From Desulfocapsa sp. (GTDB taxonomy: Bacteria > Desulfobacterota > Desulfobulbia > Desulfobulbales > Desulfocapsaceae): a DNA stretch of 35,033 nt. The stretch lies in contig JAFLJS010000069.1 in NCBI GenBank assembly GCA_022712895.1, forward strand, positions 1 through 35,033. Reading direction: 5' to 3'. Each line of letters opens with the position of its first letter. The stretch's first letter is position 1. The notes beneath the pieces are model-generated. The model searched no databases. It saw only the letters and a program-made list of their open reading frames with translations, and had not been told where the DNA came from. Shown here one piece after another: positions 13,688 to 28,622 of this stretch. A program made the position numbers and the translations under genes.

Positions 13688-14962
<1,275 letters not shown>

Positions 14963-15370: not shown

Positions 15371-15529
15371 TTACGCTTCCTCAAAATCCTCTACGCCGAC
15401 ACCGCACTCAGGACAGACCCAACCCTCCGGCAAGTCTTCAAATGCAGTACCCGGCTCAACACCGTTCTCAGGATCGCCATCAACCGGATCATAAACATAA
15501 CCGCATACGCTACAAACATATTTTTTCAT
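15371..15529 (-). CDS. Rubredoxin
   Basis: This 52-residue protein carries the two CxxC knuckles that hold one Fe(SCys)4 centre: Cys6-Cys9 ([12 protein letters not shown]) and Cys39-Cys42 (WVCPECGVG). The spacing and the aromatic residues Tyr4, Tyr13, Phe30 and Trp37 match classical rubredoxins. The usual CPxCGxxKxxF ending is here [11 protein letters not shown], with Val instead of Lys. It transfers single electrons in the cytoplasm, typically to oxygen- or peroxide-reducing enzymes in anaerobes. The start is supported by AAGGGGG before the ATG. It is the last of four small Cys-rich genes on the minus strand (15371-17028). Confidence 0.95.
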
Positions 15530-15573: not shown

Positions 15574-15759
15574 CTACTTTACAGGTTCAGTAAACCCCGT
15601 TCCGTGACAGGTTGAGCACTCCTGATCGGGAGTACATCGGCAATCTTCCCATCCATTTTCTCCCTGAGTGCCACGCCACTCCATATTGCACTCACAGGTA
15701 CCTTCCAGAACTTTTTTCCCCTGACATGTTGGGCATATCTTTTTTGGTTCTTGTTCCAT
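15574..15759 (-). CDS. Small Cys-rich (zinc-ribbon-like) protein
   Basis: This is a 61-residue protein starting at ATG 15759, chosen because GGAAGG lies eight bases before it; a GTG three codons earlier lacks a site. It has CPTCQGK at residues 9-15, then a CECN and CRC pair, then CSTCHGTGF near the end, giving about eight cysteines. The CxxCxG pattern resembles the DnaJ zinc-binding repeats, so one or two zinc or iron sites are likely. It lies 44 bases before the rubredoxin gene on the same strand. I do not recognise a specific family. A role in redox or metal handling is inferred from composition and neighbours. Confidence 0.7.
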   Translation of the reverse strand: MEQEPKKICPTCQGKKVLEGTCECNMEWRGTQGENGWEDCRCTPDQECSTCHGTGFTEPVK

Positions 15760-15945: not shown

Positions 15946-16518
15946 TTATTGTATAAGACGATAGGGATAAGCCCGCTTTGTCCATTGACTCTCCGGATAT
16001 TTATCTTCTAATCGTTCATACGCTTTTTTGAGTGATTTTGGGTCATTGTTACTCTTATAAAGAGTAACCCCTCTTTGAAATATAGCCTCAGGGGCAGAAT
16101 CACTTGCAGAATATTCAGCCAAAAGTTTTTCGTAGCAACTGAGTGCCGATTCAAATTCATCTCGAACAAAATGCGAATTGCCAATTCCAAGCCATATCGA
16201 AGGAATCAGCTCTTCAGCACCCATAAATCCGGTCGTCCGATAGTGCTCATGTCCTTCTTGATCAAGAATTAGCAAAGATGGTGTCCAATGTATGTTGAAA
16301 TCTGTGGCTATTGGTTGCTGGTCTGCGGGGACACGTAAGGGGATAACATTCTTGTTTATAAAATTAATTACTGTCTCAATGGGATACGTAACTGCATCCA
16401 TCTGTTGACAGCCAATTCATTGCGGATTGAAGAAATCCAGAAAAATTGGCTTCCCTTCGGTCTTAGATCGTTTCAGTGCTTTGTCAAAATCTGTTTCCCA
16501 ATTAATTTGCATCTGCAT
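15946..16518 (-). CDS. Thioredoxin-fold selenoprotein with UxxC site (in-frame TGA)
   Basis: The gene starts at ATG 16518 after a perfect AGGAGG and runs 190 codons to 15946 if the TGA at 16417-16419 (codon 34) is read as selenocysteine. The context is FLDFFNPQ-U-IGC-QQMD, so Sec34 replaces the first Cys of a CxxC thiol site (Cys37 is the second). This is followed by a WTPSLLILD segment, the cis-Pro loop of thioredoxin folds. From about residue 108 to the end the protein is TPR-like helical sequence. Coding continues in the same frame on both sides of the TGA and starts at the ribosome binding site, which excludes a simple pseudogene. A selC tRNA gene at 28525-28622 supplies the needed tRNA. 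A weak hairpin (TGGCTG/CAGTTA) within 35 bases of the TGA could be the SECIS. Likely a thiol-disulfide or peroxide-linked oxidoreductase. Confidence 0.85.
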
Positions 16519-16845
16519 AACTCATCCTCCTCTTACACTATTGTGTTTTAAGGTTAAGAATGCCCGTGGTTACAACACACAGACATTCGTGTTGTAAAGC
16601 GATGTTATTTTTAATTACTATGGGTACATATTGGAAATCAACAAAATAGACACATAACAGTAGGTCAGTCTTATATGTCTTAATTATTGTATGGGAAATA
16701 TTTCAACTAATCAAATTATTTTTGGGTTCCCCTTATTGATTTCACGGCGAACCCAAATTATGCTCTGTCCACATATTGGGTTAGCAAACAATAATGAGAA
16801 AAGCCTGGATTCGCATAGAATTGGCGCTACCACACCGCGTTAAAG
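16519..16845. other. Intergenic region with two inverted repeats
   Basis: No gene is visible in these 327 bases. TTACAACAC (16570-16578) and GTGTTGTAA (16589-16597) are exact 9-bp arms and, lying just upstream of the selenoprotein start on the minus strand, could be an operator. TTTGGGTTC (16721-16729) and GAACCCAAA (16749-16757) form a second exact pair between the selenoprotein and zinc-ribbon genes. Neither has a T-tract. Confidence 0.45.
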
Positions 16846-17117: not shown

Positions 17118-17240
17118 AAATAAGTGAATTCTCAAGTTACTGTTCAGACCATTACTTGTCAATTCAATTGCCATTCCACCATGTTGCTAATAGCTCATAT
17201 TTTTTTGGAATACCGACGCCCCTGAATGGAATCACTCCCT

Positions 17241-17524
17241 GTAATATGGCCTCGAAAAGCAGGACACTTTCGGCCATCGAAATGGTCAATTTATTCGAGG
17301 ATTGGTGCGCCAAATATCCCATTATTTCCATTGAAGATGGCTGTGCTGAAAAAGACTGGGACGGTTGGAAAATCATGAGCTTGAGGTTAAATAACAAGGT
17401 GCAACTTGTGGGTGATGATCTCTTTGTCACCACTACTGCTATTTTACAACAGCAGAGGGGTTGCGAATTGAAGAAGGCATTGGGTGAACAGGCACAACTG
17501 GCCAGCCTGACCTGCTGGAAATAA
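17241..17524 (+). pseudogene. eno: Truncated, internally deleted enolase copy
   Basis: From 17241 the sequence closely follows the intact eno gene from about 14447: [34 protein letters not shown], then [11 protein letters not shown] and AILQQ. It then jumps directly to the C-terminal end ([17 protein letters not shown] and the stop). About 240 bases of the donor, including the enolase signature and active-site lysine region, are missing, and everything before residue 250 is lost. The open frame from 17156 is therefore not a real protein. The mostly conservative differences suggest the duplication is fairly recent. It lies upstream of two lipoprotein genes and hrpB. Confidence 0.92.
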
Positions 17525-28524: not shown

Positions 28525-28622
28525 TGGCGGAAGTGCATGGGAATCGAACCCACCTAGCGAGTTATTAACCCGCTACACCGGATTTGAAGTCCGGGAGCGC
28601 CACCAGGGCACTATCCACTTCC
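28525..28622 (-). tRNA. selC: tRNA-Sec (UCA), selC
   Basis: This 98-base tRNA reads 5' GGAAGTGG...CACTTCCGCCA 3' on the minus strand. It has a long acceptor stem, a very long variable arm and the anticodon UCA in the loop ACTTCAAATC, all diagnostic of selenocysteine tRNA. The CCA end is encoded. The eighth acceptor pair looks imperfect (G opposite G). It decodes UGA with SelB and a SECIS element; the window's own thioredoxin-like gene has such a UGA. selC genes are also classic integration sites, but no integrase is visible here. Confidence 0.96.

Follow-up and report, generated by a model that had tools for sequence, protein, structure and literature searches.

Does the TGA that interrupts a 190-codon frame of this Desulfocapsa genome end a protein, or is it read as selenocysteine (Sec)? 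The frame occupies 15946..16518 on the minus strand of the window (i.e. the whole stretch of 35,033 nucleotides analysed here) and is closed by a TAA; on the plus strand there is no open frame at 15946-16518. A Shine-Dalgarno-like AGGAGG (16526..16531, minus strand) stands seven bases 5' of the ATG at 16518. Codon 34 (16417..16419, minus strand) is the sole in-frame TGA among the 190 codons. Translated as U, it becomes the first residue of a UxxC motif, UIGC, within the sequence FLDFFNPQ-U-IGC-QQMDAVTYP, and a cis-Pro loop is found at W78-T79-P80, P80 being the cis-Pro. With translation table 11 the ORF list gives at this place a 151-aa ORF that starts at codon 40.

The frame is thus as the original prediction had described it, and it is read from the minus strand: an AGGAGG-ATG start, 190 codons and a single TGA at the expected start of a thioredoxin (Trx) CxxC motif, where NPQ-U-IGC-QQMD is read and homologues carry Cys at the same codon. 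The coding announced as uninterrupted on both sides is conserved on both sides, the WTP loop is present, and standard annotation does leave a 151-residue protein deprived of its active site.

The protein falls into two halves: residues 1 to about 100 are Trx-like, and 101 to 188 form TPR-like helices. Pfam assigns PF13098 (Thioredoxin_2) with 40.4 bits (gathering score 27) and PF13174 (TPR_6) with 26.7 bits (gathering score 26.3). The AlphaFold2 model, built from 58 sequences (mean pLDDT 97.6, pTM 0.91), displays a Trx fold that ends near residue 100 and is followed by helices 101-118, 122-135, 142-157 and 161-173 and two short ones. The PF13174 match and the TPR helices of the model both agree with the TPR-like C-terminal half that had been anticipated. 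By Foldseek and VIA-align, the best matches include DsbD-gamma, DsbH-like and other Trx chains for the first half, and BamD, YbgF and other TPR chains for the second. Inspection of the protein sequence reveals no visible signal peptide or membrane segment, and the protein is therefore taken to be cytoplasmic.

The site codon in homologues and the Sec machinery

Homologues were found in 15 of 56 relatives' genomes (E <= 1e-10, host genome included) and, at E <= 1e-20, in 70 of the 257 genomes of the host's class, in 57 of the 277 in the class of G317 and in 85 of the 395 sampled genomes of the phylum. The model NF041027, which is not diagnostic by itself, served to choose the Desulfuromonadia-like genomes among 36. 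A further match within the host genome is distant (28% identity, E 9.3e-5). Among 72,556 plasmid records only weak matches appear, in 3 records (Leptospira, Prevotella; 23-29% identity). The scan of genome contigs gave one locus, a copy in G015 (uncultured Desulfocapsa; L016 and L026), which keeps residues 130-190 only and is joined to what by eye is transposase-like sequence; from its sequence, this copy is an interrupted gene.

The DNA of the matched loci was retrieved and the Sec site mapped by profile. From 214 matches in 212 loci we obtained 212 genes, repeated places and the interrupted G015 copy being excluded; neither one L097 match (a duplicate of L057) nor an additional piece in L261 was counted. 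In these genes, all of the same phylum, the site codon is TGA in 178 and Cys in 31; of the three others, L092 and L094 are misaligned at the site and L096 is a fragment without it. The Cys genes divide into 25 CxxC and 6 CxxS, and all CxxS belong to the genome family f72. The f72 loci L087-L095 are distant homologues (six of nine CxxS, one CxxC, two misaligned at the site), and in this family three genomes of genus g209 show no SelB.

UIGC or CIGC is present in 13 of 13 rows of alignment A1. Across 58 aligned members, 5 Cys forms included, W7, Sec/Cys-34, Cys-37, T79, P80 and G97 are invariant, and all 58 match PF13098 (E <= 0.01). On a fast tree of 209 genes, with long branches and without direction of change, Sec and non-Sec forms are separated by at least 7 changes, 5 of them forced by starred branches. 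Several genomes have two or three copies (L097, L098 in G556, L099, L100 in G627, L101 in G161, L102 in G600); in some of these genes UGAC, UTGC, USGC or UGSC replaces UIGC, and two copies match over 145 and 149 residues only.

The window itself carries selC, a tRNA-Sec gene with anticodon TCA (28525..28622, minus strand), detected by ARAGORN and by Rfam (RF01852, 77.3 bits, gathering score 47). In the host genome (3.68 Mb, completeness 100% by tool estimate) profile searches gave selA 613.5, selB 384.3 and selD 372.8 bits, each above its curated cut-off. The sel set, i.e. selA, selB, selC and selD, is thus complete. The host selD (L262) itself contains one in-frame TGA, at ASG-U-AAK. A strict limit for SelB was applied to 79 genomes. 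Of the 48 that have the Sec form 44 pass it, as do 27 of the 31 that have no form but Cys; all four Sec-form genomes lacking SelB above this limit are drafts.

The hairpin past the TGA and its state in Cys genes

A SECIS hairpin is predicted over codons 40-46 (16382..16399, minus strand) from RNAalifold, covariation, a synonymous-codon control and the fold of the window sequence. It consists of a 6-bp stem, 16399-16394 with 16387-16382, around a 6-nt loop, AGUUAC, at 16393-16388, 23 nt past the UGA. RNAalifold applied to 70 Sec genes returned a single stem of 6 bp closing a loop of 6 nt; with the T of TGA as nucleotide 1, the two strands of the stem are nucleotides 21-26 and 33-38. This set stems from 84 loci: 7 had no motif match, and the false hit G468b and the duplicate G556b were left out, which gave 70 Sec and 5 Cys genes.

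In the 70 genes 98.5% of the stem cells are paired, versus 94.9% after shuffling and at most 63% in slid registers. Three stem pairs are changed on both sides, i.e. by compensatory and partly silent substitutions. At codon 44 all 70 genes use a triplet ending in G, be the residue Thr, Ser or Ala; gene-wide the G-ending share of the same-residue codons is 27%, the codon-44 site included. The choice of the Tyr codon at position 45 follows codon 41: in TGA rows with Tyr (related genes, one duplicate row) GAT is accompanied by TAT in 107 of 107, and GGT by TAC in 22 of 28 and by TAT in 6, the latter still permitting a G-U pair. Compared with random synonymous codons drawn uniformly, the natural ones also give the more stable fold (mean z -2.58 over the 70 genes).

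The six pairs are complete in 154 of 179 TGA rows. In 20 genes with Ala at codon 44 the stem is moved by two bases; it then has 5 or 6 pairs and encloses 4 nt (GGUC in 19, AGUU in L211); this register was spotted post hoc and its count is descriptive. Examples of this second geometry are L119, L120, L150 and L192-L195. Five TGA genes fit neither register.

Taken alone, the window hairpin has a moderate z of -1.85 against shuffles, and 10% of synonymous versions fold as well; the support for the putative hairpin is in the comparison across genes, not in the window stem alone. According to the passages of PMC13188914 that set out a bacterial SECIS model, the loop has 3-9 nt, the stem 4-16 bp, a G is among the first two loop positions, the distance from the UGA is 16-37 nt and the MFE is at most -7.5. 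The window hairpin lies within every one of these limits (loop of 6, at least 6 bp, 23 nt, -15.4 kcal/mol over 56 nt). In Rfam nothing matched the hairpin at the gathering score; with the limit relaxed to E <= 10 there was one chance hit.

Taken together, the conserved TGA, the Cys homologues, the covarying SECIS and the complete sel gene set uphold the selenoprotein reading. The selC gene announced in the window is confirmed by both programs; selA, selB and selD, whose absence was to count against the original prediction, are all in the genome above their cut-offs; a search for Cys in place of Sec at codon 34 yields the 31 Cys genes beside the 178 with TGA; and the hairpin sought after the TGA is found as a 6-bp stem that fits the bacterial model as far as its passages state it. 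Judging from these sequence data, it is close to certain that the gene would give a full-length product with Sec at codon 34.

In most Cys homologues the hairpin is weakened. In f61, a genome family that we take to be Geobacter-like, 20 genomes form a group with Cys at the site. Their genes retain 2-5 of the six stem pairs, and AVTYP at residues 42-46 gives way to, for instance, EVTFA. Against synonymous versions, the mean z of 10 f61 Cys genes is -1.41, that of 18 Sec genes from the same class -2.86; by energy, the decay of the hairpin after the switch to Cys is incomplete. In two further Cys genes, 6 (G031) and 5 (L252) of the 6 pairs persist. G031 has Cys at the site, all six pairs, and a loop G-U replaced by G-C; its switch is probably recent. 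SelB is present in 20 of 20 genomes of the f61 Cys group. The replacement of Sec by Cys was therefore not forced there by loss of the machinery.

The neighbourhood of the gene

The next ORF downstream (15574..15759, minus strand) encodes 61 residues plus a stop and is Cys-rich, with the pattern CPxCxGxK..G.C.C..EWRGT..W.DC.C....C..CxGxG; it has no Pfam match. It occurs in 120 of the 257 class genomes. This small protein is the best genomic lead to a partner, and only a candidate. Following it downstream on the same strand is a rubredoxin gene of 52 aa (15371-15529, minus strand; PF00301, E 1.8e-23), a cut copy of which is also near the selenoprotein gene in L015.

In 40 loci, ORFs with a minimum length of 70 aa were grouped by BLAST single linkage; besides the selenoprotein gene itself and ORFs antisense to it, no cluster pointed to a specific conserved partner. 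The largest such cluster (13 loci) was rejected: it strings together dissimilar proteins, which by eye, from their starts, look like signalling proteins and whose distances from the gene vary. Smaller clusters (3-5 loci), partly within f72 and partly across families, were not taken as partners either; one of the three cross-family clusters lies less than 1 kb from the selenoprotein gene in L087 and L088.

Elsewhere in the window, a fragment at 17156-17524 (plus strand) matches the enolase C-terminal domain over 68 of its 296 positions and looks like a degraded second copy; a full-length enolase ORF, named from its sequence, is nearby at 13691-14962. The segment 453-3615 (plus strand) looks like a restriction-modification locus, with two similar tandem ORFs, presumably DNA cytosine methyltransferases, then an HNH_2 protein.

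Family identity, proposed chemistry and rival readings

The genome G811, which we take to be Geotalea uraniireducens, has 11 PF13098 matches (E <= 0.001), and the one that bears a TGA is the gene homologous to the window selenoprotein. For Geobacter uraniumreducens, the passages of PMC1794560 on the family give one "thiol:disulfide interchange protein" selenoprotein; with Geobacter metallireducens and Syntrophus aciditrophicus they list 3 in total. In Table 1 of PMC13188914 the "Thiol:disulfide interchange protein" family is entered as PF13098, UxxC and WP_011366075.1. Since the single TGA-bearing PF13098 gene of G811 belongs to the family of the window gene, this family is most likely, by elimination, the tabulated one, WP_011366075.1 being compared by description. 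A 2004 paper reportedly named a "thiol:disulfide interchange protein" selenoprotein family. As far as the passages and the table go, the family has probably been described since 2004-2006.

The original prediction had called the architecture possibly undescribed. This probably does not hold for the family, most likely the PF13098/UxxC one of the parts of PMC1794560 and PMC13188914 concerned, with which it shares Pfam domain, UxxC motif and clade (Geobacter, Syntrophus). The difference, again by description, is in the TPR half and the breadth of the family, which the survey text leaves unmentioned; neither the passages nor the table on the family in these two sources mention the TPR half, and our search of one literature library found no paper describing a Trx-TPR selenoprotein.

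No NCBIfam model reaches its cut-off with the window protein, and the best E for the 58 members is 1.4e-16, to TsoB. TsoB, VPGUxxT and Trx7/PDZ likewise combine a Trx-like domain with Sec, and their models give 34.8, 26.3 and 22.3 bits for cut-offs of 805, 275 and 300 respectively. DsbD-gamma and DsbH/DUF255 have a similar Trx domain (profile E ~4e-12 to DsbD-gamma chains, Z 12-13). In contrast to DsbD and DsbH/DUF255, the window protein is without visible membrane or periplasmic domains or signal peptide, has Sec for Cys and possesses a TPR half; the whole-DsbD model of NCBIfam gives 39.4 bits for a cut-off of 330.

It is highly probable that the protein is a cytoplasmic Sec-containing Trx-like protein with a TPR half, from a large Sec-dominant family spread through the phylum, one of sulfate- and metal-reducing bacteria, and most likely the tabulated PF13098 one, which would act as a UxxC reductase or isomerase. 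SelB with Sec-tRNA(Sec) would recognise the hairpin just past UGA-34, and Sec would be inserted. Sec-34 would then act as nucleophile, on a disulfide of the substrate or on an oxidised client; Cys-37 would resolve beside cis-Pro-80, which would place the substrate, and the TPR half may dock client proteins or a partner. The proposed UxxC chemistry follows what is well established for the thioredoxin fold. Most likely, the protein would be a cytoplasmic disulfide reductase whose clients dock via the TPR half.

Three other readings bear on this. The chance that the TGA is a true stop in a decayed ORF, or a sequencing error, is negligible: standard annotation would read the locus so, and in G015 one copy is indeed interrupted by other DNA, but 178 genes share a TGA at this codon, the hairpin is under selection and coding is conserved on both sides. 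It is very unlikely that the enzyme is the dedicated reductant of one partner, e.g. the adjacent small Cys-rich protein, and not a general reductase. Of the 52 class genomes having both genes, 11 show the ORF of this protein as a same-strand neighbour, and the ORF is found in 52 of 70 genomes with the selenoprotein gene versus 68 of 187 without it. This co-occurrence is nevertheless a raw count over related genomes, the two genes are unlinked in the other 41 of the 52, and a profile search of the collected loci found the ORF in 8 only, none of another class.

A selenium chaperedoxin like CnoX/YbbN, in which the TPR half would hold unfolded clients and the UxxC site repair or protect their cysteines when anaerobes meet oxygen, is an unlikely reading that nonetheless has structural arguments. 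As in the chaperedoxins defined in the passages of PMC6282202, an N-terminal Trx domain precedes a C-terminal TPR; the same passages report reductase activity for Caulobacter CnoX, and two YbbN entries occupy Foldseek ranks 2 and 3 with both domains aligned. But with a TM of 0.42-0.44 and an rmsd of 11-12 to YbbN the arrangement of the domains seems to differ, the Trx half is nearer DsbD-gamma and 2kuc, and YbbN appears neither among the best 60 of 90 chains nor among the 50 VIA rows. The YbbN targets measure 282-285 residues versus 190 here, the catalytic motif is UIGC and not SxxC or WCG/XPC, and PF14561, which we take to be the YbbN TPR model, is absent from the Pfam matches of the window protein and of the members. 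By analogy one might go further and see a large, little-noticed and Sec-dominant family of anaerobes, joining UxxC to a client-binding TPR as a selenium counterpart of CnoX, in which the SECIS would dictate the sequence after the active site until Sec gives way to Cys; we regard this as rather improbable.

Two points of wider interest arise. As plain annotation truncates the protein at its active site, the family, present in 85 of the 395 genomes, may often sit in databases as broken or mis-started genes. And f61 constitutes a natural experiment, which makes possible a direct test of the benefit of selenium in a Trx-like enzyme.
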